Assembly: GCF_943373825.1 (NCBI RefSeq)
Contig: NZ_CALSBP010000002.1
Location: forward strand, 2,717,501 to 2,781,500
Length of the DNA: 64,000 nucleotides
From: Aquimarina spinulae
GTDB taxonomy: Bacteria; Bacteroidota; Bacteroidia; Flavobacteriales; Flavobacteriaceae
Direction of reading: 5' to 3'
Positions 27,733 through 63,847 of this stretch are shown here, in pieces. A model generated the notes under the pieces. It had not been told where the DNA came from, did not search any database, and saw only the letters and a program-made list of their open reading frames with translations. The translations under genes and the position numbers were made by a program. Position 1 is the first letter of the stretch; every line of letters starts with the position of its first letter.

Positions 27733-27848
27733 GTTGATGTTTTTGATTGAAGCAGGAAAGATACTAAACTTGAGTAATACAAAATTTAGAAGAAAAAGTT
27801 AAAAAATTGTTACTTCCTAATATTTAGAGCAATTGTTTATACGCTGTG

Positions 27849-28709
27849 TTAGGCGCAGTCTTTATTTTTATCAATATGCTTTGTGATAACTTTTTCAAGT
27901 TCCTGATAGTCTGTTTGTATTAACCAATGACCTGAATCTAATTCTATAAATTCGTAATCATTTTTCATGTATTGATGGCTTTCACTAACAGAATAAGAAC
28001 CTATCGCAATATCTTTATTTCCCCATATAAATAAAGTTGGAACATTTATGTCACCAAGTATTTGATTTTTATCAGCGCTCTTTAATAGTTTATAATTACT
28101 ACGGTAATAGTTTATTGATGCAGTTAATTGTTTTGGGTTTCTGAAAACTTTCAAATAATCATTAACTTGATCCGGTTCACAATTCTTCCATAATCTTTTT
28201 AATATTTTAAAATTGTTTTTTTTTAATCGTAATTCTGGAAGATAAGGCAATTGAAAGTTCTTTACATATTGACTCATTTTTCTTTGTTCACTATTAACGA
28301 TCATTGCTTTTCCAAAAGCTTGTGGATGTGGAACAGAGATTCCGGTCCAACTTAAAATTCTGTCTTGATTATCATGAACTAACTTCCAGCCAATAAGTGC
28401 CCCCCAGTCATGACCAATAAGGTGAAATTTTGGCTTATTTAGATGTTTAGAAATGTCTAAAATATCCTTGGATAATTTATCCAAACTATAATGTTTTTTC
28501 CCTTTGGGACATGCTTCTTTACTATACCCTCTTAAATTGGGAGCAACACAATAAAAACCATTTTTCGAAAAACTAGACATTAATTTTTTCCACATAAAAG
28601 AAGTTTCGGGCCAACCATGTAAAAAAATTACTAATTCATTTTCTTTATTACCATTTATTCGACAATCGAATATTAAATTATCAATCCTTATTTTAATAGT
28701 TTCTTGCAT
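27849..28709 (-). CDS. Alpha/beta hydrolase (epoxide hydrolase / haloalkane dehalogenase-like)
   Basis: A 286-residue soluble alpha/beta hydrolase. Oxyanion motif HGWP (31-34), nucleophile elbow GHDWG with Asp101 as nucleophile, acid Asp233 in WGNKD, and catalytic His261 in SGHW. An Asp nucleophile favours epoxide hydrolase or dehalogenase chemistry over ester hydrolysis; the substrate is unknown. It is the first unit of the cassette-like array. Its TAA stop is contributed by the GCCTAAC box of the left-most D-type element (27848-27854), and another box lies 14 bases before its ATG. Confidence 0.9.
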   Translation of the reverse strand: MQETIKIRIDNLIFDCRINGNKENELVIFLHGWPETSFMWKKLMSSFSKNGFYCVAPNLRGYSKEACPKGKKHYSLDKLSKDILDISKHLNKPKFHLIGHDWGALIGWKLVHDNQDRILSWTGISVPHPQAFGKAMIVNSEQRKMSQYVKNFQLPYLPELRLKKNNFKILKRLWKNCEPDQVNDYLKVFRNPKQLTASINYYRSNYKLLKSADKNQILGDINVPTLFIWGNKDIAIGSYSVSESHQYMKNDYEFIELDSGHWLIQTDYQELEKVITKHIDKNKDCA

Positions 28710-28723
28710 TGTTCAGAATTGTG

Positions 28724-28755
28724 TCTAACGTTTAATATATGTATAGAGTTATTTT
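28724..28755 (-). repeat. Minimal D-type (attC-like) junction
   Basis: TCTAACG (28724-28730) followed by TTTAATATATG and ATAGAGTTA. It has the conserved AACG end of the D family and the start of its arm, but the loop portion is missing. It reads as a collapsed or deleted element between the first two cassette genes. Confidence 0.45.
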
Positions 28756-29399
28756 TTTCGCATTTTTTTGATTAACAATATAGCTCCAAAGATTAAAAAA
28801 CCATAAATACATATCTTGCCTAAGATATAACCTGTTTTGAACCATTGAGAATTACCTCTCATTTGACGTGGTCCATTAGCGTAGTTAATTTTTAGAGAAT
28901 TTAGATATTCATTTTTCTTTTTTTTATTAAAATTAGTTCCGTTAATATATGTTGCAACATAAAAGAACTCTTCTAAAATTAATGTATTTGTTTCAGCATT
29001 TTGGATTCCAGTTTCGGAATCGTTATAACTAACCTTATATCCAATGAAGTCATCAATTTTAAATTCAGTTGAATCCTTTAAGTGAAATCCAGCTTTTTCC
29101 ATTCTTTTGATTTGCCCACGAGTAATAGCTTTATAAGATTCTTTTAAACTTTTCTTATCAGAAGGTAAATTATTTAATTCACTTTGTTTTGAATCTATTT
29201 TCATTCTTTGAATTAAATATGCTTCGGTTTCATTTTCGGAATGAAAATTTAAAATATATAATCCTTGAGCAATTGTGTCAAGTTTAGAAACATTTCCAGG
29301 GATATTGATAGAGATGTATTCATCAACTTTTGTTTGCCCATAAGTTGAAAATGTAAAAAGTAAAACAACACTTAGTAATGCTAATCTAGGCGTTTTCAT
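28749..29399 (-). CDS. Secreted protein with C-terminal membrane anchor, unknown function
   Basis: A 216-residue protein not recognised. Signal peptide (MKTPRLALLSVVLLFTFSTYG, cleavage after YGQ), a polar alpha/beta body of about 150 residues, then a single C-terminal membrane helix (about 190-208, ILGKICIYGFLIFGAILLI) and a lysine/arginine tail that stays in the cytoplasm. This gives a periplasmic domain tethered at the inner membrane. It sits alone between two D-type elements. Confidence 0.7.
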   Translation of the reverse strand: MKTPRLALLSVVLLFTFSTYGQTKVDEYISINIPGNVSKLDTIAQGLYILNFHSENETEAYLIQRMKIDSKQSELNNLPSDKKSLKESYKAITRGQIKRMEKAGFHLKDSTEFKIDDFIGYKVSYNDSETGIQNAETNTLILEEFFYVATYINGTNFNKKKKNEYLNSLKINYANGPRQMRGNSQWFKTGYILGKICIYGFLIFGAILLIKKMRKK

Positions 29400-29416: not shown

Positions 29417-29585
29417 GACAACGTTATAAGTATGTGTCATAGCAGGGCAAAATGTTACTTAACCTTGGACACATCTGCGCAGATTTTATACTTTTTTAGC
29501 TATAAAATCACTGCGCCATCATAAATATATAAGAACCTTTCGATTAATCACAATCTAAGCCATGATCACATATATAGTGTTGTGC
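29417..29585 (-). repeat. D-type attC-like element, long class (about 169 bp)
   Basis: Outer boxes GACAACG (29417-29423) and GTTGTGC (29579-29585). The inner arms TTATAAGTATGTG and CACATATATAGT pair. The inner sequence TATGTGTCATAGCAGGGCAAAATGTTAC recurs in the elements at 32133 and 50951. Stem interrupted by an asymmetric bulge next to the AAC box. Confidence 0.7.
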
Positions 29586-30492: not shown

Positions 30493-30560
30493 GCACAACG
30501 TCTCTTGTATGGTGTGTTTGCTCCCCGAAGGGAGCAAATGAACTATACAAATTGTTACCC
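30493..30560 (-). repeat. D-type attC-like element, short class (68 bp)
   Basis: GCACAACG (30493-30500) and GTTACCC (30554-30560) boxes. Arms CTTGTAT and ATACAA pair, and the centre holds a perfect hairpin, TGCTCCC/GGGAGCA. The right box supplies the TAA stop of the gene that ends at 30555. Confidence 0.7.
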
Positions 30561-31340
30561 AACGTTTTTTAATATTTGTTCAATCCGTTTAATATCTTCG
30601 ATACTAACTAATTTTAATGTTTTTATAAAAAGATTATCATCATTAATTTCAATTTCTAAACCTTTTTGATTCTCAAAATTTTCTAGAAGTTTATTAATTC
30701 GTATTACATCATAACTATTTTTGAAAGTAAATGATTCGTAATCTTTTAATTTTAAATCATCATCATTTCTGAATTTGTCAAATATTTTCTCAACAGAAGA
30801 TTTTTCTCTTAAATAATAGTGCCCATTTATATTCTCAATTTTTTTCCAGATCATTAAATGCGATTCCTTATAATCTTCTTGATAATAAGTCATTCCGTGA
30901 AGTTCGGGTGCAGGTAGAATTAAAACTCCATTTTCAAAAGAGAATGGATTTGAGTATGACCAAGCATCGTAATTATTTAAAGTTTTTGTACTGTCAAAAA
31001 TGTTAAATTGTTCATCTGTTAGTTCAGTTCTTTTATAATCTTTATTTTCTCTTAAATAATTTAGGGCAATCTCGGCTTGCTTTTCATCTTCAGTAAGTAG
31101 TTTTTCCAAATCGGATTCAGGTACTGTTCTGAATTCATTATCGTGAGAAACCCAATGTCCAGATTCCGCCTCTTCCAAAGTTATTTTCATTCCAGTTTCA
31201 GGGTCAATAATATGTTCATCTTCCAAACTCTTTTTTAACTTTCTTTCGTATTCCTTTTCTTCCGCAGTTTTTGGTTTGAACATCACATAAAGACAAAAAA
31301 GGATTCCAATTCCTACGATAATAAAAATAAATGTTATCAA
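30555..31340 (-). CDS. Membrane-anchored hypothetical protein
   Basis: A 261-residue protein not recognised. One N-terminal membrane helix (MITFIFIIVGIGILFCLYVM) is followed by a short lysine-rich stretch and a large acidic soluble region with WSYSNPFSFENGVLILPAPE. Probably anchored with a cytoplasmic domain. Its stop codon is formed within the adjacent D-type element (GGG-TAA-CAA), and a B-type element lies upstream of its start. Confidence 0.65.
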   Translation of the reverse strand: MITFIFIIVGIGILFCLYVMFKPKTAEEKEYERKLKKSLEDEHIIDPETGMKITLEEAESGHWVSHDNEFRTVPESDLEKLLTEDEKQAEIALNYLRENKDYKRTELTDEQFNIFDSTKTLNNYDAWSYSNPFSFENGVLILPAPELHGMTYYQEDYKESHLMIWKKIENINGHYYLREKSSVEKIFDKFRNDDDLKLKDYESFTFKNSYDVIRINKLLENFENQKGLEIEINDDNLFIKTLKLVSIEDIKRIEQILKNVG

Positions 31341-31365: not shown

Positions 31366-31512
31366 TAACAACAAAATAAAGAATATATATCCTTTATTTC
31401 CTATGTATAGTTATTTTTTAATATGCTGTTGTATAATCATACTATTTAAAAATAGATAGTTAAGAGTATCTATTTGGATTATCCAAAACACCGCTAGCGG
31501 GAGTTGTGTTAT
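31366..31512 (-). repeat. B-type repeat, short copy
   Basis: Begins AACAAAATAAAGAATATATATCC and ends CCGCTAGCGGGAG. It matches the B family of 51968 and 56358 but lacks the middle portion (TGTTTACTTGATAAATG block). The end forms CCGC/GCGG pairs. Confidence 0.65.
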
Positions 31513-32117: not shown

Positions 32118-32132
32118 TTTTTCAATATTGGA

Positions 32133-32292
32133 GATGACGTTTAATATATGTGTCGTAGTAGGGTAAAACGTTACCTTGTTTTTCGATTTTTGTGTGCATT
32201 GGTTGTTAGCAGTAAGTATTGCGCCATTCCAAAAATAAGAAGATCATCCGTTTAACGATCTAGTAGCTATGATATCATGTATGTTGTTAGGT
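32133..32292 (-). repeat. D-type attC-like element, long class (160 bp)
   Basis: GATGACG (32133-32139) to GTTAGGT (32286-32292). It shares ATATGTGTCGTAGTAGGG and GCGCCAT blocks with the element at 29417. The right box provides the TAA stop of the DUF2071 gene. Confidence 0.7.
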
Positions 32293-33006
32293 GCAGTTTT
32301 TTATTTTTTTCAACCCAATCCATTCATGTTCAATATCTTTCATCAATAAAGCATTATCAAACTTTACAGATCCTTTCGGAAAAATACTTTCATTTTCAAA
32401 AAAACTTGATTTTACATTTTCAACTTCCAAAAGAGATACTTTCCAGTTATAAGCTTTCAACTCAAGTCCGTCGAAATCATTTTTGTCTGGAGAATATCCC
32501 ACAGAGCCTTCTTCAAAGAAATCCGAGACGCATTCGAGATTTTCGAATACACTTTCTTTATTCCAAGTATTAGTTTCTCGGGCCTTAATAGATAAGGATG
32601 TGTTGTCATCGCTTATGAAACTGACTTCATAATTTCCTTCTTTTTCATTTATTTTGAAATCTGCTAAATGATGAATTCCCGGAAATATAGTTCCTCCTGC
32701 TAAAGATTTTAATTTAGAAGAAGTGTCTCTTCTTGGAATATAAACTCCCTCTTTATGTTTTCCATTTTCAGTCCATTCAACAGCAATTCTATGTGCTCCG
32801 TTTTCCGAAGATATTCCGATTTGTTTAGGTAAACCTTTTGGTCTGATTTCTCTTAGTCTAATTAAGCAAATTCCAGCAATTCCTTTTCCGTTTACCAATT
32901 TAGGCTTAAAAGGTTTTGGTAAATAATCATCCAAGACTTCTTTGTCAATTTGATAATTGATTAAAATGCGCCTGTCAATTATTCCTTTTATTTTTGGGAT
33001 TTTCAT
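32287..33006 (-). CDS. DUF2071 family protein
   Basis: A 239-residue soluble protein of the DUF2071 family (acetoacetate-decarboxylase-like fold). Diagnostic features: DRRILINYQIDKEVLDDYLP near the N-terminus, then GIAGICLIRLREIRPKGLP and a long C-terminal beta region. No lysine-based decarboxylase site is confirmed, so the activity is unknown. Its final codons ACC-TAA form the right box of the D-type element. Confidence 0.8.
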   Translation of the reverse strand: MKIPKIKGIIDRRILINYQIDKEVLDDYLPKPFKPKLVNGKGIAGICLIRLREIRPKGLPKQIGISSENGAHRIAVEWTENGKHKEGVYIPRRDTSSKLKSLAGGTIFPGIHHLADFKINEKEGNYEVSFISDDNTSLSIKARETNTWNKESVFENLECVSDFFEEGSVGYSPDKNDFDGLELKAYNWKVSLLEVENVKSSFFENESIFPKGSVKFDNALLMKDIEHEWIGLKKIKNCT

Positions 33007-33023: not shown

Positions 33024-33090
33024 ACCTAACGTTGCGTATAACAAGCGTGGCTTCCCGAAGGGAGCTATGATTTGTTATACCTTGTTAGCT
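33024..33090 (-). repeat. D-type attC-like element, short class (67 bp); clearest example
   Basis: Plus-strand left arm CTAAC-GTTGC-GTATAAC; the reverse complement of the right arm is CTAAC-AAG-GTATAAC. The outer 5 bp and inner 7 bp pair perfectly, with 5 versus 3 unpaired bases between. The centre holds CTTCCCGAAGGGAG. This R/bulge/L layout is that of integron attC sites. Confidence 0.75.
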
Positions 33091-33889: not shown

Positions 33890-34020
33890 GCTAACGGTTT
33901 TATGTATGATTTCGTTGTGTGTTTCAGCAACTAATTTAGCAAATACAAACCGAATAGAAAATGCAGGAGGATTTTCGTAAGTAGGCTAGAACTAGCAATT
34001 AATTATACATGGTGTTGTAG
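33890..34020 (-). repeat. D-type attC-like element, middle class (131 bp)
   Basis: Left CTAAC-GGTTTT-ATGTATGATT; reverse complement of right CTACAAC-ACC-ATGTATAATT. The inner TTCAGCAACTAATTTAGCAAA...GCAGGAGGATTTTCGTAAGTAGGC region recurs in the element at 58692. Asymmetric bulge as in the rest of the family. Confidence 0.75.
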
Positions 34021-35310: not shown

Positions 35311-35375
35311 ATATTAAAAACTATAGATTTTCTCCATTTGACATTTAAGTATTGGTGTTTCTTTTGCTTGCAGCT

Positions 35376-35460
35376 AACAATGATATAAAGGATATATGTC
35401 CTTTATATCCCATGTATGGTTATGTTTACTTGATAAATGTAATTATTAGTATTGAGTATA
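35376..35460 (-). repeat. B-type repeat, left part, followed by C repeat
   Basis: AACAATGATATAAAGGATATATGTCC... through GTTTACTTGATAAATGTAATTATTAGTATTGAGTATA. AAAGGATATATGTCCTTTA is a hairpin core. The second half of B is absent; a C-type repeat follows directly at 35461. Confidence 0.7.
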
Positions 35461-35646
35461 AAAAACCCGATCGATTTGCATGGTAAAATTAATCACCACT
35501 ATTTTTCCCAGTTCCGAAAAATGAAACTGGCGTGCTGTATCATTGTGTATCAATTATTTATTAACTACGATCTATTGTAATTTTTGTAAAACAAGCAATA
35601 GATTTTAAAACATGTTATACAATGTCTAAAGAAAATTATGACACCA
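35461..35646 (+). repeat. C-type repeat copy 1, with duplicated start of the 40023 gene
   Basis: Nearly identical to 39862-40047, which is the leader and first 25 coding bases of the gene at 40023. The copy includes ATGTCTAAAGAAAATTATGA (from 35622) to ACACCA and then diverges, leaving a truncated gene start that would run on as an unrelated peptide. Differences are a handful of bases. With the B copy it fills the 372-base gap between the serine hydrolase and the next gene; no other gene is seen there. Confidence 0.85.
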
Positions 35647-38059: not shown

Positions 38060-38350
38060 TGTACAACAATAGAATAAAAGGATATATGTCCTTTATATTC
38101 TATGTATAGTTATGTTTACTTGATAAATGTAATTATTAGTATTGAGTATAAAAAACCACCCTCGATTTCCTTGGTAAAATTAATCACTACTATTTTTTCG
38201 AGTTAAAAAAAATGAAACTGGCGTGCTGTATCATTGTGTATCAATTATTTATTAACTAATATCTATAGTGCATGATAAAGTAAAAAAACGCTTAAGGTGT
38301 TACTGATTTTTTACTATGCTATTGTATAATAATACTATTTTAAATAGTTT
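38060..38350 (-). repeat. B-type repeat interrupted by a C-type repeat
   Basis: B left part 38060-38154 (AACAATAGAATAAAAGGATA... TATAAAAAACCA), C-type copy 38155-38275 (CTCGATTTCCTTGGTAAAATTAATCAC... ATTATTTATTAACTA), then B right part from about 38292 (CTTAAGGTGTTACTGATTTT). In uninterrupted copies (56358) AAAAAACCT is followed directly by CTTAAGGTGTTACT, so C appears inserted. This fills the 307-base gap; there is no gene. Confidence 0.75.
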
Positions 38351-39286: not shown

Positions 39287-39287
39287 T

Positions 39288-39796: not shown

Positions 39797-39861
39797 TATT
39801 TTTAACATTAAATTGTGTAAAAAAATATAAAATGTTGATTTTTAAGAATGTATTGCGTACC

Positions 39862-40047
39862 AAAACCCCGATCGATTTGCATGGCAAAATTAATCACTGC
39901 TATTTTTCTCAGTTCCGAAAAATGAAACTGGCGTGCTGTATCATTGTATATCAATTATTTATTAACTACGATCTATTGCAATTTTTGTAAAACACGCAAT
40001 AGATTTTAAAACATGTTATACGATGTCTAAAGAAAATTATGACACCA
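39862..40047 (+). repeat. C-type repeat copy 3: leader and start of the 40023 gene
   Basis: Runs from AAAACCCCGATCGATTTGC to the first 25 coding bases of the next gene; matches 35461-35646 closely and 38155-38275 in part. It includes ATCTATTGC (39971-39979) paired with GCAATAGAT (39996-40004), a 9-bp stem kept in copy 1 with one G:T, and CAGTTCC/GAAACTG. Confidence 0.85.
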
Positions 40048-41229: not shown

Positions 41230-42024
41230 TTAATCGAAAAAATCTCTGAATTGGTTGACTACCAATTCTGTATACCAAACTAAATATGGCATCAATTTTA
41301 GCACTTCATATTTTTTTCCATTTACAACAGTCATAGGCTTAGTCTTGAATTTAAAATCCCCTGATACCTCTTCCAAAGGGTGATTTGATAAATACTCCAT
41401 TATTACACCCCCTTTTGTAATGTTGTCAATATAGATTTTAACATTTGGAGGACAATTTAAGCTTGCTTCTTCTTCTGTTCTAAATTTAATTTGACCTGAT
41501 TGTTCAATTGAATCTGGAGGTAATTCAAATTCTAGCGGAATTCGATGCTTGTCTATATTACTGATAGAATTAAGCAAATATAAAGGATCGTCTTGTGGAG
41601 TTCCCTCAACATTATCATTTTCTCTTTGAAATGGTTGAATTAGTTTAAGCTTTTCAGAAACGGGTTGAGGTAATTGGCTTAAAAGTTGTTTGGTTTGGTT
41701 TATAAAATCTTGTTCTTTATGATAAATTGGAAATTTTAATTTTCCTGGTTTATCTGGAGGATTTTTTACTTTAAGAGCGAGTAGATATACGAGATTATCT
41801 AACAGGCTTCTTAAATTATGAATACAATCTCCAAAATCTAATTCCCATTTTTCAATTTCTACAAGTTTATGAGTGCTATCTACGATTATTTTAAATCCTT
41901 TTTTATCAGGTAAAAACTCACATTTACAATCAATGGTGTTGACAGAAGTCCATTTTTCAAAATCAACTAAAATACTTTTAATATGTTCAACTGCTCTTTT
42001 TAGTTTTGAGTCAATTTTTTTCAT
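41230..42024 (-). CDS. Hypothetical protein with conserved HNLRS helix motif
   Basis: A 264-residue soluble protein. The segment DFGDCIHNLRSLLDNLVYLL (about residues 85-104) is the hallmark of a widespread bacterial family without known function, in which an IHNLRSALDH-like helix is followed by a FPI block (KLKFPIYHKEQDF) and a LNSISNIDKHR block; all are present. Often found in mobile or accessory regions. It sits between the GC-rich 40023 locus and the TrlF-containing operon, all on the minus strand except 40023. Confidence 0.7.
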   Translation of the reverse strand: MKKIDSKLKRAVEHIKSILVDFEKWTSVNTIDCKCEFLPDKKGFKIIVDSTHKLVEIEKWELDFGDCIHNLRSLLDNLVYLLALKVKNPPDKPGKLKFPIYHKEQDFINQTKQLLSQLPQPVSEKLKLIQPFQRENDNVEGTPQDDPLYLLNSISNIDKHRIPLEFELPPDSIEQSGQIKFRTEEEASLNCPPNVKIYIDNITKGGVIMEYLSNHPLEEVSGDFKFKTKPMTVVNGKKYEVLKLMPYLVWYTELVVNQFRDFFD

Positions 42025-42132
42025 TCTTTTCTTAATGTTGATGGCCTTGTTTACGCAGTGTAGTGTGTAAAAAGATACTAATTTTTTGGATTAACACAAA
42101 ACCTATATTAGCTATGTTTTTATGCGTATTTT

Positions 42133-42708
42133 CTACATAATCTCATCTGCTCTTATTATTTTAATATTCGGGTTTATCTTTTCAATTAATTCAGTTACCA
42201 AATTTATATCTCGCGTATTCATTTTCCGTCCAGTAATAATTTCGTGAACTGATATTTTCACATACCGTTCGTTCATTGTGAAAATTCGCTTTTCTTCTTC
42301 GTATGCCCAAACATCTAATTTATGGCAAAGTATTTGACGAGCAGTTTGGTGGTTGTAATCTTGGTCTCTAACATAAATGATTCCATTATATTGGACATTT
42401 TCGGCAATATAATTTTGGTCAGTAATTTTTACTCCAATCGCAACTCCTTTTTGCCCATTTGCATAGTGCGACCACATCAGTTCATTATTTCTGACTTTTG
42501 ATAATGAGCAAATTCTTAATTCGCCTTTTTCATCCCTTATTTTTTCCTTAATTCTTTGATTTAATTCTCCGTGTCGATAATAATATTGACCTTCCATTGG
42601 GTCATTCAAATCTTTATATCGAGCAGCATAGAGTCTGTTCTTTAAAATTATATCAACAAAGTTTTTGAAATTATCTAAACCTCTGTATTTGTATAGTAGT
42701 TCGTTCAT
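42133..42708 (-). CDS. DUF2971 family protein
   Basis: A 191-residue soluble protein with all DUF2971 blocks: YKYRGLDNFKNFVDIILKNR, LYAARYKDLNDPMEG, LRICSLSKVRNNELMWSHYA and KGVAIGVKI. Biochemical role unknown. Its ATG overlaps the stop of the upstream 165-residue gene by 4 bases, so it is translationally coupled, and it is the last gene of an operon led by the TrlF-type ATPase. DUF2971 genes recur in defence-like and mobile contexts, which fits this location. Confidence 0.85.
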   Translation of the reverse strand: MNELLYKYRGLDNFKNFVDIILKNRLYAARYKDLNDPMEGQYYYRHGELNQRIKEKIRDEKGELRICSLSKVRNNELMWSHYANGQKGVAIGVKITDQNYIAENVQYNGIIYVRDQDYNHQTARQILCHKLDVWAYEEEKRIFTMNERYVKISVHEIITGRKMNTRDINLVTELIEKINPNIKIIRADEIM

Positions 42709-43202: not shown

Positions 43203-43244
43203 TATTTTATTATTTATCTCTTGTTTAATAACCCAAGCACTTTT

Positions 43245-45993: not shown

Positions 45994-46024
45994 AATCTAT
46001 TTGTAGTATTTCGGTTCACAGTGG

Positions 46025-46084: not shown

Positions 46085-46088
46085 GTAT

Positions 46089-47597: not shown

Positions 47598-47965
47598 ATA
47601 TCTAATAATGAAAATAAAAGATATACATCCTCTATATCCCGCGTATGGTTATTTTTAAATTTAATCTGATATCAAATTCTTATTGTGCTACAATATCAGT
47701 GATTCATTTATAAAATAATTGTGATAATCCACAATCACCATTTGTTTTTACCAAACAACCCCATACTTCAACTCTTAAGAATTGAAGTATGGGGTTGTGT
47801 TTACTTGATAAATGTACCTATTATTATTGAGTATTAAAAACTCCCTAGGGTGTTACTTATTTTTTAACATACTGTTGTTTAATCATACTATTTTTAAAAT
47901 AGATAGTGATCTATTTGTATTATCTAAATAGTAATGTTACTAACGAGACGCTAGTGTGAGACTCT
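47598..47965 (-). repeat. B-type repeat, variant with a 16-bp hairpin
   Basis: Left part 47598-47660 (AATAATGAAAATAAAAGATATACATCC, then CGCGTATGGTTATTTTTAAA shared with 61520-61545), and right part from 47798 (TGTTTACTTGATAAATGTAC to CTAACGAGACGCTAG). Between them CAACCCCATACTTCAA (47756-47771) pairs perfectly with TTGAAGTATGGGGTTG (47782-47797). It fills a 428-base gap without a gene. Confidence 0.65.
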
Positions 47966-49642: not shown

Positions 49643-49706
49643 GTACAGCGCTGCGCGTATCAATCGTTGTGGTTTTTACTACTATGAATTATACACCTTG
49701 TAAGGA
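49643..49706 (-). repeat. D-type attC-like element, short class (64 bp), divergent
   Basis: GTACAGCG (49643-49650) and GTAAGGA (49700-49706). It lies between genes like the others, but its boxes are degenerate (CAGCG for AACG, GTAAGG for GTTAGG). The inner CGCGTATCAAT/AATTATACACC arms pair only partly. Confidence 0.4.
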
Positions 49707-49716
49707 ATAGGTTTTT

Positions 49717-50196
49717 TTATATTGCGTCATATTTATTTCCAACAAACTTTAATTTCTTAATGCAATCATTCAAACAGTCAGCAAATCGTGTCCTCCAAAT
49801 TATTAATTCGGTGAAAGAACCATTCCGTTGAACAATTCTATAATTTCCTATTCGAAAAGTCATTTTAAATCGAAGTAACATTATTTTAATTTTAGATCCT
49901 CCTTCAATGATTTTTTCTCCATTAATAAACTCCATATAATCAAATCTATCAATGTCTTGTGCCAAAATTTTAGTGATTAAGTTTTTGTCAATAGAGTAGA
50001 TATATTTTGTTGTCACAATAATTTTTCTTGACCTTTTGAGTTTGATTAAAAGGACTTCTAATTCGTTAGTATCTAAGACTATATTTTCTTTAAATTGATT
50101 ATTTGGATTGTCAAAAAACATTACTCCTCTACTATTCCGATAGTACTTTACCTTTTTTAGAATTTGATTCCTTATGTCTTCTTTTTTCTTTTTCAA
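49717..50196 (-). CDS. Hypothetical protein, 159 residues
   Basis: Not recognised. A soluble, basic protein beginning MKKKKEDIRNQILKKVKYYR with several beta strands (LEVLLIKLKRSRKIIVTTKY, KIKIMLLRFKMTFRIGNYRI) in a pattern like a PH or double-psi fold. It starts 30 bases after the suppressor-of-fused-type gene on the same strand, and the two probably form one unit. Confidence 0.6.
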   Translation of the reverse strand: MKKKKEDIRNQILKKVKYYRNSRGVMFFDNPNNQFKENIVLDTNELEVLLIKLKRSRKIIVTTKYIYSIDKNLITKILAQDIDRFDYMEFINGEKIIEGGSKIKIMLLRFKMTFRIGNYRIVQRNGSFTELIIWRTRFADCLNDCIKKLKFVGNKYDAI

Positions 50197-50226
50197 TGAC
50201 TAGTTTTCTAAAAATCGTCCAACTTC

Positions 50227-50934
50227 CTATTTTAAAAATTTACTGATAAAGGATTCTTTTTTTATCAAGTTTTTTCTTTTAGGATTTAATATCTCTTTCG
50301 AATCAGCTTCTATTATTTTGTCTAATAAGGCATTGTAGCCATTATTAATTTTATACTCAACTTCATTTTTATAAAGAGGAAAAAAACTGTAAATATTTAT
50401 AATCCTTCCGTCCTTTTTAATTTTTGTAAAATTTTCGTCAAAAGTTACTGAAGGTAAAATTACACCACCCACAAATTCCGTATCACTTCTATAGGGTTCA
50501 AAGTCGGCGTCGGAAACTATGGAATGTCCAATTCCTATCCAGCTGTCTTCCTGATGAGGGAATTTAGCAGTTCGCTTTAACATTGAAATTATATAATCAT
50601 TTTTTTTGTCACCGGTATAAACATCTTCAAATTCAATTCCTTTTGGAATTAACATCATCATTTCAGCAAATCTTAGATCTTTTAGGTTTTCGGCTTCTTG
50701 AGGGATTTTCATTTCTAAAGAACTCATTCCTGATGTAATCAAAATATCGAACTTAGAAGACTTTACTTTTATTAAATATACGTGTACTTTAAAGTCAAAC
50801 GCCATTATTTCGTGAAAAACTCTTACCTCAGAATCTGGAAAATGCTTTTCAATATGCTCATTCACCCATTCATAATGTTCGTCAAAATAATCTCTATTTT
50901 GGAAATGATCAATTATGCTTTTTATTCCGTCCAT
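50227..50934 (-). CDS. Suppressor-of-fused domain protein
   Basis: A 235-residue protein of the bacterial SUFU family: MAFDFKVHVYLIKVKSSKFD, then LITSGMSSLEM, MMLIPKGIEFEDVY, and YIISMLKRTAKFPHQEDSWIGIGHSI are the expected blocks. In animals SUFU binds GLI factors; in bacteria these are thought to be polymorphic-toxin immunity-like or protein-binding modules, but no toxin is visible here. It is followed by a 159-residue gene and bounded upstream by a long D-type element. Confidence 0.8.
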   Translation of the reverse strand: MDGIKSIIDHFQNRDYFDEHYEWVNEHIEKHFPDSEVRVFHEIMAFDFKVHVYLIKVKSSKFDILITSGMSSLEMKIPQEAENLKDLRFAEMMMLIPKGIEFEDVYTGDKKNDYIISMLKRTAKFPHQEDSWIGIGHSIVSDADFEPYRSDTEFVGGVILPSVTFDENFTKIKKDGRIINIYSFFPLYKNEVEYKINNGYNALLDKIIEADSKEILNPKRKNLIKKESFISKFLK

Positions 50935-50950
50935 TTTATTTTCGGCTTAT

Positions 50951-51122
50951 TGCTAACGTTTAATTATGTGTCGTAGCAGAGCAAAATGTTACCCTGCTTT
51001 TCAATTTTTTCTATACATTGTCTGCTCTAATTTTTGTTTCCTACTAACATTACACCATACCAAAATAAACTAACCAATTGATTGATCATTTAGCAGTTAT
51101 GATCACATATATGGTGTTAGGC
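50951..51122 (-). repeat. D-type attC-like element, long class (171 bp)
   Basis: TGCTAACG (50951-50958) to GTTAGGC (51116-51122). Left CTAAC-GTTTA-ATTATGTG against CTAAC-ACC-ATATATGTG. TATGTGTCGTAGCAGAGCAAAATGTTACC recurs at 29417 and 32133. The right box supplies the TAA stop of the DUF2199 gene. Confidence 0.75.
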
Positions 51123-51967: not shown

Positions 51968-52178
51968 GTAACAATAGAATAAAGGATATATGTCCTTTAT
52001 ATTCTATGTATGGTTATGTTTACTTGATAAATGTAACTATTAGTATTGAGGATAAAAAACTCCCTAAGACGTTCTTGTTTTTAATATGCTGTTATATAAT
52101 CATACTATTTTAAAAATATATAGTGATGGTTAGCTATTTGGATTATCTAATATAGTAATGCCACTAGCGAGAGTGGAG
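51968..52178 (-). repeat. B-type repeat, full copy (about 210 bp)
   Basis: From GAGTAACAATAGAATAAAGG (the hairpin core AAAGGATATATGTCCTTTA) through TGTTTACTTGATAAATGTAACTATTAGTATTGAGGATAAAAAAC to CTAGCGAGAGTGG. Closely matches 56358-56578. The left 50 bp alone form an attC-like inverted pair between an AAC box and a GTTATG box. Confidence 0.75.
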
Positions 52179-53820: not shown

Positions 53821-53890
53821 GCCTAACGTTTCTTGTATGATGCGTTTGCCTGCTGAAGGCGCGGCATATGGAATATACAAATTGTTATAC
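53821..53890 (-). repeat. D-type attC-like element, short class (70 bp)
   Basis: GCCTAACG (53821-53828) to GTTATAC (53884-53890). Arms TTCTTGTAT and ATACAAATTG; centre GCCTGCTGAAGGCGC. In gene orientation it ends ACGTTAGGC, identical in form to the R' core of class 1 integron attC sites. Confidence 0.75.
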
Positions 53891-54616: not shown

Positions 54617-54692
54617 ATATAATGTTAGCAAGTGTTTATTTTATTTCCAAAGTTTCCACTTCGACTTTTTCTTTTTAGAGCTTTCTTTGTCA

Positions 54693-55151: not shown

Positions 55152-55163
55152 TTTTTAATATTT

Positions 55164-55316
55164 GTTAACGTCTCGTATAAGAAATTTAGGGCAGGTGACA
55201 AACGATACATTTCGAATTAGGACTAAGCAAAATATTTATATTTTGCGACTTTGCAAATAATTACAGATCATCTGATTTAGTACAAAGCCCCTATGTTTTC
55301 TTATATATTGTTGTAT
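55164..55316 (-). repeat. D-type attC-like element, long class (153 bp)
   Basis: GTTAACG (55164-55170) to GTTGTAT (55310-55316). Left TTAAC-GTCTC-GTATAAGAAA; reverse complement of right ACAAC-AA-TATATAAGAAA. Ten paired bases with the usual 5 versus 2-3 bulge. CAAATAATTACAG and TTTGCGACTTTGCAAA pair inside. Confidence 0.75.
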
Positions 55317-56357: not shown

Positions 56358-56578
56358 AATGATATACAACAATAGTATAAAGGATATATGTCCTTTATAT
56401 TCTATGTATGGTTATGTTTACTTGATAAATGTAATTATTAGTATTGAGGATAAAAAACCTCTTAAGGTGTTACTTATTATTTAATATGCTATTGTTTAAT
56501 CATACTATTTAAAAACAGATAGTAATGGGTGTCTATTTAGATTATCTAAACAGTAATGCCTCTAGCGAGAGCGGGGTT
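56358..56578 (-). repeat. B-type repeat, full copy (about 220 bp)
   Basis: From AACAATAGTATAAAGGATATATGTCC through GTTTACTTGATAAATG and AAAAAACCTCTTAAGGTGTTACTTAT to GCCTCTAGCGAGAGCGGGG. Together with 51968 this is the reference for the B family. CTCTAGCGAGAGCG forms a terminal hairpin. Confidence 0.75.
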
Positions 56579-56605
56579 TTGATAAACATTATGGACAATT
56601 GACTT

Positions 56606-57097
56606 TTAGTCCAAAATGTCCTTTTTTTCAATATGATACATTTTTAATAAATCAACAAATCCGTTTTTTATTTTATTCACTTCAGACTGCGGTGTATCTT
56701 TTTCTAGAAAAATTGTTATACTAGATGCGGTTTCCCCATTGAAATGTTCTTCAGTTTTTATGTTAATCTTTTTAGTCTCAATAGAATTATTGGGAAAAAA
56801 TATTTGAATGTATTTACTTTCAGCTTTTTGCTTGACTGTTATTTCTGAATACTCTTTTGCGGTCAAATAATATGCTGTTGAACAAAGTTTAAAAGCAGTA
56901 CAGAATTGTATGAATTTAATCGTTTTGTTATGATTAATGTCAACCTCCTCAAGTAAATAGTTGTAATTTTTTTCGCTATCATAAAGCTTATGTATATCTA
57001 TTTTTTCACCCAAAGATAGAAGCGCTTCTGTTTTAGTTTGACTTGAACATTTTGTGTAGATAGATAATAAAAATAATACAACAAATAAATTTTTCAT
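56606..57097 (-). CDS. Lipoprotein or secreted protein of unknown function
   Basis: A 163-residue protein starting MKNLFVVLFLLSIYTKCSSQ, with the Cys inside a KCSS context that suggests a lipoprotein or signal cleavage. Body is alpha/beta: KAESKYIQIFFPNNSIETKK, NGETASSITIFLEKD, then a C-terminal helix ending KKDILD. Function unknown. It lies between a B repeat and a middle-class D element. Confidence 0.6.
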   Translation of the reverse strand: MKNLFVVLFLLSIYTKCSSQTKTEALLSLGEKIDIHKLYDSEKNYNYLLEEVDINHNKTIKFIQFCTAFKLCSTAYYLTAKEYSEITVKQKAESKYIQIFFPNNSIETKKINIKTEEHFNGETASSITIFLEKDTPQSEVNKIKNGFVDLLKMYHIEKKDILD

Positions 57098-57127
57098 GAT
57101 GTAGATAATGTTTTTTGAGTTATGGTT

Positions 57128-57255
57128 TACAACGTGTTTGTGTATGTTTAGTTGCGCTTAGCAACTAAGATAGCAAAAGGGGACAAGTATGAGTGAAATT
57201 CGGAGAATTTTTCGATTGGCACAGAGATACTCTAGCAATTAACACGGTGTTGGCA
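57128..57255 (-). repeat. D-type attC-like element, middle class (128 bp)
   Basis: TTACAACG (57127-57134) to GTTGGCA (57249-57255). AGTTGCGCTTAGCAACT is an internal hairpin with a GCTTA loop shared with 58711. Outer arms GTGTTTGTGTATG and CAATTAACACGG pair loosely. Confidence 0.7.
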
Positions 57256-57298
57256 TTGGTTTTTCTTTTATTCCTAGATTTTTAATAGTCTTGCATAC

Positions 57299-57814
57299 TT
57301 ATATTTTTTTTGAGAAAACAATATTTTCATATGCTTTTCCATTGACTATAAAATTTAACTCTCCAACGTTTTTAAATTCATTTCTTTCATAGAATCTAAT
57401 GGCTCTATTATTTTTTATGTAAACGGTGAGCCACATGGTATCTAATTGCAGTTTTTTGACTTGCTCTTCAACAAAAGTTAGTAACGGTTGTCCAATTTTT
57501 AAGGGTATAAAATCATTTAGGATGAAAATTCGTTCTAATTGACAACTGTTTTGTGATGTAATATTTTCGTTTGACGCATTTACTACTAATTTCGCATAAC
57601 CGACAGGTAAATCATCTGCATAAATAATATAGAAAAGTTGCTTGGGATTGTTTATATTCTGTTTCGTTTTAAAAACTGAAAAATTCTCGTTAAGGTATTT
57701 TAATACATCGCTTTTATCTTCGATATAATGACCATGAGATTCAGCCCATGTTAGTCGACCTAGAAGTGCTAAAACATCTGTATCTGCTTTTGTAGCTATT
57801 TTTATTTTAATCAT
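57299..57814 (-). CDS. GNAT family N-acetyltransferase
   Basis: A 171-residue GCN5-type acetyltransferase: IADDLPVGYAKLV (motif core), then QLERIFILNDFIPLKIGQPL forms the acetyl-CoA pyrophosphate-binding loop, and LTVYIKNNRAIRFYERNEFK the C-terminal motif. Substrate unknown. Its first codons overlap the stop of the small membrane protein gene by 8 bases, so the two are translationally coupled. Confidence 0.92.
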   Translation of the reverse strand: MIKIKIATKADTDVLALLGRLTWAESHGHYIEDKSDVLKYLNENFSVFKTKQNINNPKQLFYIIYADDLPVGYAKLVVNASNENITSQNSCQLERIFILNDFIPLKIGQPLLTFVEEQVKKLQLDTMWLTVYIKNNRAIRFYERNEFKNVGELNFIVNGKAYENIVFSKKI

Positions 57815-58043
57815 TACTATTCTTATTTATTCGTAATCTTCTTATATGATAACCATGAAGCAATACAGCAATTGTGCAGCCTACAATTATTGGTGTAGCG
57901 CTAATTAGTGCACCATATAAAATGTAACCTGTATTCGCGATTAGTGATATTAAACGTAGTTTATATTCGCCTTTGGTGGACATAGAATATAAATTGATCA
58001 CTAGAGCTGTATAGCCAATACTATCAATTAAAAATGGACTCAT
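57807..58043 (-). CDS. Small membrane protein, YgjV/SemiSWEET-like
   Basis: A 78-residue protein of three membrane helices (about 5-22, 28-46 and 51-66; DSIGYTALVINLYSM, IANTGYILYGALISATPIIV). The three-helix layout and Gly/Asn-rich motif recall YgjV or half-transporters that need to dimerise. Function not assigned. Overlaps the GNAT gene by 8 bases and is divergent from an Lrp-type regulator gene. Confidence 0.65.
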   Translation of the reverse strand: MSPFLIDSIGYTALVINLYSMSTKGEYKLRLISLIANTGYILYGALISATPIIVGCTIAVLLHGYHIRRLRINKNSND

Positions 58044-58167
58044 GTTTTATCTTTTTCTGTTTGATTAATTTATATTGGAAACTATCCTGTTTAAACAGTG
58101 TAACACAAATATAGAATGCATTATCTTATTTTTGGTTTATAATCGAATTAATAATTGTATATTTAAG

Positions 58168-58182
58168 TTCGATACTGTCGAA
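58168..58182. promoter_or_regulatory. Candidate Lrp-type operator
   Basis: TTCGA-TACTG-TCGAA, a perfect inverted pair in the 166-base intergenic region between the divergent small membrane protein and Lrp-type regulator genes. A TATATTTA box (58158-58165) overlaps it. Lrp/AsnC proteins often bind such sites. Confidence 0.4.
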
Positions 58183-58209
58183 TAAATAGTAATAAAATTA
58201 TGATTATAA

Positions 58210-58620
58210 ATGGATACATTAGATAAAAAGATACTTGAAATGCTAAAAATTAATGCTAGAGAAAGCTTCGCTAATATTGGAAAAGAAATAGGGTTGTCTG
58301 CTCCTGCCATAGGCAAGCGTGTTCGGCAAATGGAAGAAGAAGGCATAATCGAAGGCTATGGTCTAAAATTGAATCATGAAAAATTGGGGATTGAGACTAA
58401 AGCATATATAACATTAGTAATACACCGAGAATCAAGAGGATCAAATGATGTTCAAAAACAAATACAAGCAATGGAAGAAGTGCAAAGTTGTGATAGAATT
58501 ACTGGTGATGATTGCTTATGCGTTTTAGGTTATTTTAGAAACAATAAGCATCTTATTTCCTTTCTTGAAAAAATCGCAGAGTATGGTGCTTCAAAAACGA
58601 GCATTATTTTAGAAGCGTAA
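58210..58620 (+). CDS. Lrp/AsnC family transcriptional regulator
   Basis: A 136-residue regulator. N-terminal helix-turn-helix (MDTLDKKILEMLKINARESF, then IGKEIGLSAPAIGKRVRQME) and a C-terminal AsnC ligand-binding RAM domain (about 70-136, with CDRITGDDCLCVLGYF). It should sense an amino acid and control the divergent membrane protein/GNAT pair, possibly an export-and-modify function. One of the plus-strand exceptions in the array. Confidence 0.92.
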   Translation: MDTLDKKILEMLKINARESFANIGKEIGLSAPAIGKRVRQMEEEGIIEGYGLKLNHEKLGIETKAYITLVIHRESRGSNDVQKQIQAMEEVQSCDRITGDDCLCVLGYFRNNKHLISFLEKIAEYGASKTSIILEA

Positions 58621-58691
58621 TTTATTTCCTTGAAAGGTTCTATAAACAGACAAATTCTGTCATTTATTTATCTGTAAGAGATAATATTACT

Positions 58692-58824
58692 GCCAACGTC
58701 TTTGTATAAGATTAGTTGCGTGGTTTAGCAACTAATTTACCAAAAATGGAACGAACCAGAGGAAATTCCGCAGGAATTTCCAAGTAGGCAAGCACCAAGC
58801 AATTAATTTTATATATTGTTATGT
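58692..58824 (-). repeat. D-type attC-like element, middle class (133 bp), longest arms
   Basis: Left CCAAC-GTCTT-TGTATAAGATTAGTTGC; reverse complement of right ATAAC-AA-TATATAAAATTAATTGC. Inner loop holds AACGAACCAGAGGAAATTCC and GGAATTTCC. Right box ACATAAC carries the stop codon of the minus-strand remnant at 58819. Confidence 0.75.
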
Positions 58825-58947
58825 GCTGGATTCTATTTTAATTTGATGACCTTTTGTTAATTTTTCAAGAATATTTTTAGGTGTTTTTAATAACTCTGGA
58901 TTTTTTTCTAAAAGTATAGTTTCAGTGATTGTTAATGTTTTAACCAT
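58819..58947 (-). other. Possible small minus-strand gene or remnant
   Basis: A 42-codon minus-strand frame (MVKTLTITETILLEKNPELL then KTPKNILEKLTKGHQIKIES) whose TAA lies in the D-type box, as in other array genes. The frame stays open upstream to about 59060, with no ATG before 58947. It may be a genuine small gene or the 3' end of a cassette gene whose front was replaced by the plus-strand lipoprotein gene. It is the only coding signal in the gap between 58620 and 59030. Confidence 0.4.
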
Positions 58948-59029
58948 AATATTTGGAATGCCATTTTTGGTAACTTTTACTATTAATATTGAGTCTAATT
59001 TTATAATTTTTAAAAAAAATATATCAGAA

Positions 59030-59644
59030 ATGAAAAAATTACTTTCACTATTTTTATTCTTTGTTTTGTTTTCTTGTTCGGAAAGCGACGTACAGCAATT
59101 TGAGTCTGGACAGTTTGGGCAGCAAGATATTGTAACAGATGCAAGTGGAAGAGAATATCCTTTTTTGGATCCAAATGTGATATCATACTGTGGTCCGGGT
59201 TGGGGAAGAAAGTTTTGTCGATTTTTATCTAAATATGATGGGACAATCTGGACAGATGCAGAAAATTATTATAGCGACTTTTCAGATATAAAATTTTCAA
59301 ACTTTTCAGACAATGAATATTTTATATCCTTCTTTAATCTTGATAGTATTGCTTCATATTGTGAAGGATGGAAAATAGGTGAAACAACTTACGATGGAAT
59401 AAAATGGAATATAAAAATCAAAAAAGATCAGGAGGATGTTTTGTGGTTTGCATATGATTATTATGGGTCTAGTGAAGAAAGGGAATATACTATAACTTAT
59501 AAATATGAAGTAATTGATGGTTTACTTCATTTTTCAAGTACTGAAGGTCAAACGTTTATTTTCAGTCCTTCTGAAAGAAATTATTCAGAAGATTTTCTTG
59601 ACACAGGCGACATAATTAGATTAAAAGGATGTATGTTTTACTAA
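59030..59644 (+). CDS. Lipoprotein of unknown function
   Basis: About 204 residues. A lipoprotein signal (MKKLLSLFLFFVLFSC, lipid Cys16) is followed by an acidic, aromatic-rich beta body: ESDVQQFESGQFGQQDIVTD, GPGWGRKFCRFLS, WTDAENYYSDFSDIKFSNFS. The frame is open to 58925, but that part overlaps the small minus-strand frame; the ATG at 59030 sets the signal peptide first and is preferred. Not assigned; plus strand, against the array. A CTCATC/GATGAG hairpin lies just past the stop. Confidence 0.7.
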   Translation: MKKLLSLFLFFVLFSCSESDVQQFESGQFGQQDIVTDASGREYPFLDPNVISYCGPGWGRKFCRFLSKYDGTIWTDAENYYSDFSDIKFSNFSDNEYFISFFNLDSIASYCEGWKIGETTYDGIKWNIKIKKDQEDVLWFAYDYYGSSEEREYTITYKYEVIDGLLHFSSTEGQTFIFSPSERNYSEDFLDTGDIIRLKGCMFY

Positions 59645-59785
59645 TTTTGCCCACTGTAATGGCTCATCATCTTGATGAGACACAGTTTGGACTTTAGGTA
59701 TTATGTAAGGTAATAGTTTAATAAGTAGTTTATGATATTAGAATTGCCAAATTCGGTATTTCTTTTGTTTCCCATTTTCTCTTGC

Positions 59786-59916
59786 ACATAACGGTTTCGG
59801 CTATGATTTTGTTGTGGAATCATCCGCAGGATTATTCCGCTTAGAAATCAGCCATTGATTTATACTTTTATTTTGGTGTGGCACAAAACCACAATGAATT
59901 ATAGCCGTTGTTAGCC
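59786..59916 (-). repeat. D-type attC-like element, middle class (131 bp)
   Basis: ACATAACG to GTTAGCC (59910-59916). Left ATAAC-GGTTT-CGGCTATGATT; reverse complement of right CTAAC-AA-CGGCTATAATT, eleven inner bases paired but one. Loop includes GGAATCATCCGCAGGATTATTCC. Confidence 0.75.
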
Positions 59917-61390: not shown

Positions 61391-61486
61391 ATTTTTTGAT
61401 TTAAAACAATAGGACGAGAAAGAATAAAACTTGTTACACTAATTAGAACTTTAAAAATAAGACTCTGTTATTTTCTAATAAATGCT

Positions 61487-61605
61487 AACAACAGAATAAA
61501 GGATATATGTCCTATATATTCTATGCATGGTTATTTTTAAATTTAATCTTAGATCTACTTTTATCTCTTATGTGCTATAACGATGTTGTATATACGATGT
61601 TGGCA
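61487..61605 (-). repeat. B-type left part joined to a minimal D-type junction
   Basis: AACAACAGAATAAAGGATATATGTCC to GCATGGTTATTTTTAAATTTAATCT (shared with 47640), then TATAACG (61576-61582) and GTTGGCA (61599-61605) enclosing only ATGTTGTATATACGAT. The last pair is a shortened D element. Confidence 0.55.
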
Positions 61606-62817: not shown

Positions 62818-62914
62818 TAGTATAAAATTTAAAGGAAGTGTCAAAAGTCCAATAAATCCTAGGTGTTGAAAAGGAAACTATACAAGAATTAGCTTACTGG
62901 AGTGGTTTTAGAAC

Positions 62915-63736
62915 TTAGTGGTTTAATAGGGTACTCCAATTTTGACGATAATGCCTGCTGAACCTTATGGATTGACCATTGGATAAAATACAATCGTAAT
63001 CGCCATTCTTTCTTGATTTTAATTCTGTTATGTGGTTTTTATTGACAATTACCGAGCGATGAACCCTTAAAAAGGTTTGAGGGTCTAATAAGTCTCCAAG
63101 TTTTTTTAAACTCTCATCATGCAAAATTTTCTGACTGGTTGTATGTACCATTGTGTAGGGTCTGTCGGTCTCGATAAATAGAATTGTAAACGTGTCAATC
63201 TTTATTCTACGAATACCATTTTTAACAGTAATGGTTTTATTGGTCTTTTGATTTTGGAAGTTTTTGTTTAACTGTTTTTTTCTTTTAAGATAATCAAAAA
63301 CAAAAGGACTAAATAAATAGACCATAATTGTTATATGCAATTGATTTGAAACTGCATTTTTAAGTATTGTTAAAAAACGATGAGGTACAGAATAGATAAG
63401 ATTACTTCCTAAAATAAAAATTGAAGTAAAAATAAATATATGTAGTACACTAAATATAAACCCTGTACTTAAAGCGTAAAGTACTTTGGTAGTTAATGAT
63501 TTGAATTGAACTTTATTATAAAAGGAATTTGCAATTTTTATAAATGGAATAAATAAAAGCCAATATATATTATAGAGCATAGTATCGGTCCAATAAAAGG
63601 CAGTAGGTTTAATTTTTGAGAAAACGTAATCTTGAAAAATTGCCAACCCATAAAGTACAACACAAAATACAACCAATGTCCTAAAATTTGGATGTAGGAG
63701 TTTGTTTATTGTTTTATTAATTTTTTGTTTTCTCAC
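62915..63736 (-). CDS. LytTR-type regulator with N-terminal membrane domain
   Basis: A 273-residue membrane-bound regulator. Four N-terminal membrane helices (to about residue 150) with a charged loop, then a C-terminal LytTR DNA-binding domain (about 170-270): FIETDRPYTMVHTT, LLDPQTFLRVHRSVIVNKNH and YDCILSNGQSIRFSRHYRQN. No receiver or kinase domain. It starts 97 bases upstream of the dioxygenase-like lipoprotein on the same strand without a D box between, so the two form one unit and the regulator probably controls that lipoprotein. Confidence 0.9.
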   Translation of the reverse strand: MRKQKINKTINKLLHPNFRTLVVFCVVLYGLAIFQDYVFSKIKPTAFYWTDTMLYNIYWLLFIPFIKIANSFYNKVQFKSLTTKVLYALSTGFIFSVLHIFIFTSIFILGSNLIYSVPHRFLTILKNAVSNQLHITIMVYLFSPFVFDYLKRKKQLNKNFQNQKTNKTITVKNGIRRIKIDTFTILFIETDRPYTMVHTTSQKILHDESLKKLGDLLDPQTFLRVHRSVIVNKNHITELKSRKNGDYDCILSNGQSIRFSRHYRQNWSTLLNH

Positions 63737-63754
63737 TTCTTTTTAAGAGTTACT

Positions 63755-63847
63755 GTCAACGTCTCGGTTATGGTTAGTACGGGAATTAAAAGCAATAAAC
63801 TTTGGGTTAAGCACCAAAACCCGTATTAATTATAGCCATTGTTACCA
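63755..63847 (-). repeat. D-type attC-like element (93 bp), right-most
   Basis: GTCAACG (63755-63761) to GTTACCA (63841-63847). Left CAAC-GTCTC-GGTTATGGTTAGTACGGG; reverse complement of right TAAC-AAT-GGCTATAATTAATACGGG, fifteen of eighteen inner bases matching. It shows the array continues past the window. Confidence 0.75.

Follow-up and report, generated by a model that had tools for sequence, protein, structure and literature searches.

The DNA analysed here (the window, 64,000 nucleotides) is the segment C2:2,717,501-2,781,500 of the Aquimarina spinulae genome, which comprises 6.24 Mb in three contigs. Positions 27846 to 63847 are occupied by short gene units read mostly from the minus strand and interspersed with attC-like elements, and an earlier note made from the sequence had described this region as an integrase-less gene-cassette array. 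The array was placed correctly, but it runs on for about 10 kb beyond the end of the window. Judged by its sequence features, the region from 27.8 to 63.9 kb is a genuine integron cassette array. A complete integron, with a tyrosine recombinase of 375 amino acids, a palindromic attI and an attC array, is located on contig C3, and it is very probable that the window holds a chromosomal integron array served in trans by this C3 integrase, which would belong to an IntI-related lineage lacking the I2 helix.

In gene orientation the attC sites consist of an R'' box (nnnYAAC), 2-3 bases, a left arm, a variable centre, a right arm, 4-6 bases and GTTRnnn. A scan for strict arms missed most of the sites because it allowed no bulge, and was dropped in favour of a box-and-stem scanner and then of a covariance model. 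185 high-scoring sites were collected from integrase loci, the C3 locus included, with lengths mostly in classes near 50-60, 115-121, 155 and 175-190 bases, and the covariance model, R1, was built from an alignment (A2) of 33 sites in the 115-121 class, to which the A. spinulae genome contributed none. R1 has a 14-bp stem with two conserved single mismatches and unequal spacers to the R boxes. In A2 94.8% of the cells pair, compared with 66.0% after shuffling and at most 42.6% in slid controls, and 12 of the 14 pairs show change on both sides; 116 cells are changed on both sides against 32 in shuffled alignments, with a covariation score of 0.666 against 0.152 (slid controls at most 0.106). 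As is characteristic of integron attC, the sites carry R and L boxes in inverse orientation and fold into a stem that contains unpaired bases.

R1 finds ten matches in the window at E ≤0.02, all within 32-64 kb, and none at E up to 1 in positions 1-27,800; no Rfam family matches the window at gathering scores. In the whole genome (E ≤0.1) there are 36 matches, 35 of them on the minus strand. Apart from a few elsewhere they cluster at C3:600-620 kb, at C2:2.75-2.79 Mb, where the window array lies, and at C2:3.85-3.90 Mb; the last region, C2:3849771-3903329, is a third attC cluster in the genome. The ten well-formed elements given in the earlier note all found support, eight from R1 (E 3e-15 to 0.007) and two from the scanner only, and the common direction ascribed to the sites was upheld by the ten R1 matches, which are all on the minus strand. 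The single architecture that it described is seen overall, but a number of sites are decayed, and its placing of nearly all units on the minus strand is mostly right, with at least five sizeable plus-strand open reading frames (ORFs) inside the array as exceptions to an otherwise tandem series of short cassettes in one orientation.

In integrons, each cassette has an R'' complementary to the TTRRRY with which it begins, because both are carried by the circle. The same complementarity is found here: for 242 neighbouring site pairs downstream of integrases the mean match is 5.82 of 7 positions, with 136 pairs matching perfectly and 196 matching at no fewer than 5, compared with means of 2.51 (maximum 2.82) in 1000 shuffles and 3.18 (maximum 3.60) in 1000 shuffles within loci. 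In the C3 array, where the scanner gives 13 sites and R1 gives 15 at E <0.01, the 13 cassettes have a mean match of 4.46 against 2.45 shuffled, and none of 5000 shuffles was as high. In the window array 12 hand-chosen cassettes, three of which start beyond the window, match at 5-7 of 7, and without selection a partner matching at 6 of 7 is present within 3.5 kb for 16 of 36 candidate starts, a set that includes false ones.

The C3 integrase was found by searching for a recombinase elsewhere in the genome, as the earlier note had proposed. Its gene (C3:620,779-621,906) encodes a protein with the Pfam domains PF13495 and PF00589, and is followed directly downstream on the same strand by a palindrome, GTT and then the array, giving an attI that adjoins the integrase gene and at which the first cassette is joined. 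No match to the IntI family model TIGR02249 in this genome reaches the cut-off; the best one is the C3 locus (114 + 84 bits), whose protein scores 192 bits against a cut-off of 265, and 184-207 bits were obtained for 5 of 5 proteins. The best NCBIfam match is recomb_XerA_Arch (224 bits, cut-off 220); the product name of this model, "site-specific tyrosine recombinase/integron integrase", is the one that NCBI gives to some relatives. PF22823 is precomputed for most relatives, yet it was not returned by our Pfam scans, and the N-terminal region is therefore left unnamed; a structure model of the integrase has pLDDT 80 and pTM 0.53. Among named genomes the closest relative is found in Aquimarina sp. 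AU58, with 92% identity. Searching the genome with the integrase alignment at E ≤0.01 gave, beyond the XerC-like, the XerD-like and one other recombinase-like gene, only a 38-residue remnant. It corresponds to the integrase C-terminus with a stop (C2:1593437-1593550), near R1 matches at 1586192 and 1591081, and the region is perhaps a decayed integron.

By its score below the TIGR02249 cut-off, the lack of a 42-residue segment and a position outside the IntI group, the C3 integrase is not an IntI. The first Arg box and HxLRH are 91-92 residues apart in 64 of the 66 new integrases, as we call the C3 protein and its relatives (L135 and L156 being not measurable), and 133 residues in the 30 measurable of 32 IntI proteins; in an alignment of 14 proteins the 42-residue gap coincides with the IntI-specific stretch. 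The additional domain of IntI (I2 helix) before the second Arg box is absent from the new integrases. The tree groups 16 IntI rows to the exclusion of the new integrases (100/100) and likewise unites 34 core rows (100/100); four Xer rows are separated from IntI and the new integrases together (100/99). A K/R-N/S-P-like tail, variable in L119 and L144, is common to IntI and the new integrases of the 14-protein alignment and is not found in the XerC and XerD of A. spinulae, which fits a sister relation. The lineage of the C3 integrase is probably a sister lineage of IntI without the I2 helix, and the system a variant of the integron.

The relatives comprise 26 loci and 40 further genome stretches, one of which (L158) has a true IntI; 67 loci were tabulated, including the C3 locus and a Persicobacter plasmid, and L037 was left out since its match runs off the contig. 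46 loci constitute the core, 34 of which form one clade in the tree, the other 12 having been omitted as redundant, short or incomplete. According to the scanner, attC sites are present downstream in 37 of the 39 core loci with at least 1.5 kb of sequence there and in 13 of 13 with enough sequence among 15 other loci, so that 50 of 52 integrases adjoin attC arrays. The orientation check suggested in the earlier note shows sites in one orientation downstream of the cognate integrase: in the core loci scanner sites downstream (379 kb) number 208 on the integrase strand and 26 on the reverse, and upstream (296 kb) 3 and 7, and R1 gives 308 sites in 35 core and other loci (25 of them belonging to the 33 that trained it), with all 300 listed on the integrase strand as read by eye. 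The core integrase genes are on the same strand as the array, unlike the divergent layout of IntI. A side clade (L151, L152, L155, L156) has scanner sites downstream in 0 of 4 loci; its attC lie upstream on the opposite strand, which is the classical divergent layout, and these loci were therefore rejected as array-less integrases and provide no negative control. The Persicobacter (Cytophagales) plasmid, L119, encodes an integrase of the C3 type with one attC downstream by R1 and none by the scanner. At the XerC and XerD control loci (L012, L013) the 10-11 kb surrounding each gene contain no R1 match.

A palindrome with GTT a few bases after it was called automatically in 44 of the 46 core loci, the exceptions being L132 and L140. 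An AGGACAT-type palindrome is found at the C3 locus and in L014, L022, L031 and L038, a ATATAGTTAC-type in L026-L030 and L035, and a AATAGCAATTGCTATT-type in L018, L021, L023, L024 and L039, only the last of which is in the tree. The palindrome sequence broadly follows the integrase subclade, and it may therefore be recognized by the cognate integrase as part of attI.

Seven copies of a palindrome-GTT element (repeat family D3), closely similar to the C3 attI core, are present in the window and are read as putative attI-type pads; several units begin at one of these copies instead of at an attC. The array beyond the window holds further pads, and attI-type sites with a gene starting after the GTT are located at C2:1,644,592 (L054), 3,850,549 (L053) and 3,863,883 (L057). 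Cassettes starting at pads follow the R'' rule with 7/7 at 31369 and 71147 and 6/7 at 56370, 64973 and 74082; partners were also found for the pads at 35378 and 61489, though not at the nearest site, and no 6/7 partner was found for those at 38067 and 51972. A 198-nt repeat has two copies that are 94% identical, at 35449-35646 and 39850-40047, and a third, weaker one at 38140; combined with the D1/D4/D6 repeats it makes up longer elements that precede attI-type pads. A near-perfect inverted repeat with arms of about 18 bases (47750-47805) lies in a stretch resembling such pre-pad sequence.

An array at the orthologous place in AU58, with flanks that are 94-96% identical (one flank gene shows 95% identity over 3.2 kb of DNA), allowed the sister comparison proposed in the earlier note. 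The two arrays form a mosaic, in which blocks about 95-99% identical are separated by stretches that are unrelated or consist of repeats. Two blocks are reordered, 49658-51013 corresponding to 146205-147560 in the sister and 71439-72279 to 136599-137441, and long blocks such as 56368-59814 are kept in order. The pads 56370 and 61489 are preserved up to the GTT in both species and are followed by different cassettes, and at 28729, 33030, 59792 and about 72261 the cassette start is common to both and the preceding sequence differs. Blocks and junctions were chosen by hand. Of the 17 block ends, 10 fall in the interval from -5 to +60 around a junction, a number reached in none of 20,000 random draws, which gave a mean of 0.8; 7 of the 33 typed junction positions are not at GTT, and the edges counted at two of these, 49659 and 72252, continue to count once the positions are corrected to 49649 and 72261. 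By this comparison cassettes have been gained, lost and reordered at the R' cleavage point, as in integrons.

With the integrase alignment (A1), 115 of 397 Flavobacteriaceae genomes were found at E ≤1e-80, and 67 at E ≤1e-129 by hand count. The scan of related genomes with a covariance model, also suggested in the earlier note and made with R1 and thus with sites of other genomes, matched 87 of 100 Flavobacteriaceae genomes (one per genus, A. spinulae included), and 10 of the 13 without a match are smaller than 2 Mb. Across the phylum, TIGR02249 exceeds its cut-off in 105 of 395 genomes; Flavobacteriaceae are not among them, and one (G430) is of the same class. R1 matches 73 of 148 genomes across the phylum, 18 of which carry an IntI over the cut-off (hand count), indicating that the attC of both integrase types look alike; G430, with a true IntI, has no R1 match, and R1 thus does not detect every attC. 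Of 20 array stretches fetched from 15 genomes and chosen for their R1 matches, two show a more distant integrase with 91-residue spacing, and the others show none within the stretch. According to PMC9892861, Polaribacter phage P12002L carries a CALIN, that is a cluster of attC lacking an integron integrase (IntegronFinder, PMC9024848), and one attC was recombined with attI1 by IntI1. R1 matches this phage (L215) at 32794-32927 (E 2.5e-7) and 31114-31317 (E 1.6e-5). Such matches in a lytic phage suggest cassette traffic between flavobacterial integrons and phages.

The sites, pads and defence-like genes of the window are listed in the table. Of 40 ORFs scanned with Pfam, 21 have no match above the gathering score, and the named cargo includes alpha/beta hydrolases, CAAX proteases, a beta-lactamase-fold protein, a methyltransferase, a GNAT protein and a SUFU-domain protein. 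Ten ORFs were scanned with PADLOC, three of which have a best match below 1e-18 to candidate defence-gene models; since these models are matched by neighbouring cassette genes (41233-47585), the array may carry phage defence.

Table. Features of the window array, in window coordinates (R1, match to the covariance model; scanner, box-and-stem scanner; sister, array of Aquimarina sp. AU58)
Feature	Position	Strand	Evidence and remarks
attC	29417..29585	-	R'' AACGCACAAC and own cassette start GTTGTGCGTC (30499), 6/7; scanner; no R1 match
attC, short class	30493..30560	-	R'' GTTGGGTAAC and start GTTACCCAAC at pad 31369, 7/7; scanner; no R1 match
attC, R' side mutated	32132..32292	-	R'' TGCACCTAAC and start 33030, 7/7; R1 E 0.007
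attC, short class	33024..33090	-	R1; sister: same cassette start 33030, different attC before
attC	33890..34020	-	R1 E 1e-13
attC, degenerate	49643..49706	-	R1 E 0.018; edge of block placed elsewhere in sister
attC, long class	50951..51122	-	scanner and repeats; no R1 match
attC, short class	53821..53890	-	R1
attC	55163..55316	-	R1 E 1e-6
attC, absent from the earlier note	57127..57255	-	R1 E 3e-4
attC	58691..58824	-	R1 E 3e-15; R'' AGCACATAAC and start 59792, 6/7
attC	59786..59916	-	R1; sister: same cassette start 59792, different attC before
attC	63754..63847	-	R1; R'' AGCTGGTAAC and cassette start at pad 64973 (outside the window), 6/7
putative attI-type pad	31366..31440	-	D3 repeat; GTT at 31369 after the palindrome, with a 7/7 match for the cassette start at this point
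putative attI-type pad	35375..35449	-	D3 repeat
putative attI-type pad	38064..38139	-	D3 repeat
putative attI-type pad, core G mutated (ATTAG)	47600..47678	-	D3 repeat, sequence
putative attI-type pad	51969..52043	-	D3 repeat
putative attI-type pad	56367..56441	-	D3 repeat; sister: pad kept, different cassette just after GTT
putative attI-type pad	61486..61560	-	D3 repeat; sister: pad kept, different cassette just after GTT
PDC-S31 match	42136-42708		PADLOC 3e-61
Ppl match, C-terminal part only	43248-45779		PADLOC 1e-19
PDC-M28C match	46092-47585		PADLOC 3e-19

We propose that the region is a chromosomal integron cassette array in which circular cassettes of one or two genes, each closed by an attC, would integrate at G|TT, in attI-type pads as well as in attC sites, and be excised and reordered. 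The substrate would be the folded single strand of attC, and catalysis should be performed by the C3 integrase, acting in trans on the C2 array; lacking the additional domain of IntI, this enzyme would have to handle attC by other means. The description as a gene-cassette array has thus stood up, through the pairing of R'' with the own start and the sister mosaic; integrase-less applies in cis but not to the genome, where C3 encodes a non-IntI integrase with an attI and array of its own, and the separation of units by attC-like elements holds in part, the pads taking their place at several units. A number of observations weigh against the proposal. Recombination at these sites is predicted from sequence alone, and action in trans on the C2 array is deduced from the shared attI sequence. 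The palindrome of the C3 attI scores 8 with a shuffle maximum of 9; in 37 of the 46 core loci the palindrome scores higher than any of 20 shuffles, in the other 9 it does not, and its agreement with the subclade is not strict, since L121 and L124, of another subclade, resemble the L026-L030 type. In the C3 array 6 of the 13 cassettes match at 4/7 or less. Seven of the 17 mosaic ends lie away from junctions, several of them in repeats, indicating that another, repeat-linked rearrangement also acts. The tree, with only four Xer rows opposite, leaves the attachment of IntI among the new lineages unplaced. Finally, several attC sites and one pad of the window are mutated, and part of the array may therefore be dead.

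The elements could also be ordinary intergenic hairpin repeats without a role in recombination, a reading to which we give almost no credence. Many window sites are indeed decayed, and at a scanner score of 8 there are 27 sites on the gene strand and 25 on the opposite strand, so that array and flank are poorly separated; at a score of 13 the numbers are 5 and 1, with 1 and 1 in the flank. The matching of R'' and R' within cassettes would be unexpected of a plain repeat, however, as would sites confined to a single strand beside an integrase and sister-species edges at GTT. Mobilization by XerC/XerD, as in IMEX elements, is barely more credible: the genes are present and the enzymes related, but the surroundings of both genes are free of R1 matches, and the attI palindrome varies broadly with the subclade of the C3-type integrase.

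That a classical IntI acted or acts on the array, the C3 recombinase being incidental, is very unlikely. The R1 matches in the 18 IntI-carrying genomes, together with the published assay in which the Polaribacter phage attC was used by IntI1 (PMC9892861), make such sites look compatible with IntI, but no TIGR02249 match over the cut-off exists in this genome and none of the 105 genomes with one belongs to the Flavobacteriaceae, whereas the new integrases adjoin attC arrays in the 50 of 52 loci mentioned and have them upstream in the side clade. It is unlikely, to a lesser degree, that the window array is a fossil, long since immobile, with the C3 integron as the sole live one. The mutated pad at 47600, the truncated attC remnants near 54640 and 61599 and the long blocks in common order with AU58 (56368-59814) would fit a fossil; on the other hand most pads have kept the palindrome and core, and AU58 has other cassettes at two orthologous pads and two blocks reordered in spite of its closely similar flanks.

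Over and above the array itself, we rather favour the broader reading that Flavobacteriaceae have a near-universal class of integron whose integrases form a sister lineage of IntI and never acquired the I2 helix. Canonical attC would then be recombined without I2, which would not be required, integron recombination would be older than I2 or have arisen twice, and one Aquimarina integrase would serve many dispersed attI pads in trans. The additional domain is used to recognize intI (PMC2426708, PMC9668308), the role of I2 is treated in PMC4792948, and PMC7790495 states that the gain of the I2 helix moved integron integrases from double- to single-strand recombination, direct proof being lacking because deletion of I2 kills IntI1. 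A natural family without I2 beside canonical attC arrays would make this question directly testable. Bacteroidota are named among the integron phyla in PMC8618304 and one complete Bacteroidetes integron, in Salinibacter ruber M1, in PMC9024848 (IntegronFinder 2.0); with attC matches in so large a share of the Flavobacteriaceae genomes, Bacteroidetes would become a group with common cassette arrays, and if the integrase types have attC in common, an exchange of cassettes between marine flavobacteria and bacteria with IntI would be possible. Full-text searching, which covered few subscription papers and no preprints and was judged by titles and the openings of abstracts, gave no paper on integron integrases without the additional domain or on chromosomal integrons in Flavobacteriaceae, and with this scope the result is no proof of novelty.

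Among the known systems, the archaeal integrons (PMC9668308) are similar in being integrons outside the usual taxa, but their integrases carry the IntI-specific domain that the new integrases lack. XerA, or archaeal-type Xer (NF040815; PDB 5hxy, 4a8e), gives the best NCBIfam and PDB sequence matches and likewise has no I2 insertion, whereas the core-clade integrases have about 100 extra N-terminal residues and attI and attC arrays alongside; from the XerC and XerD of the same genome the C3-type integrases differ by the tail shared with IntI. The window array resembles a CALIN in that it contains two or more attC without an integrase in cis, as searched with R1 and the integrase alignment, and differs in its attI-like pads and in the likely cognate integrase on another contig. 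A further comparison is with the sedentary chromosomal integrons with IntI, such as the Vibrio superintegron. Both have cassettes arranged in tandem on one strand, attC sites in which R''/L''/L'/R' boxes occur together with unpaired bases, an R'' complementary to the own cassette start and an attI beside the integrase gene, whereas here the integrase is without the additional domain and below the family cut-off, the core-clade gene runs with the array, and attI consists of a palindrome and GTT, with several attI-type pads in the genome.

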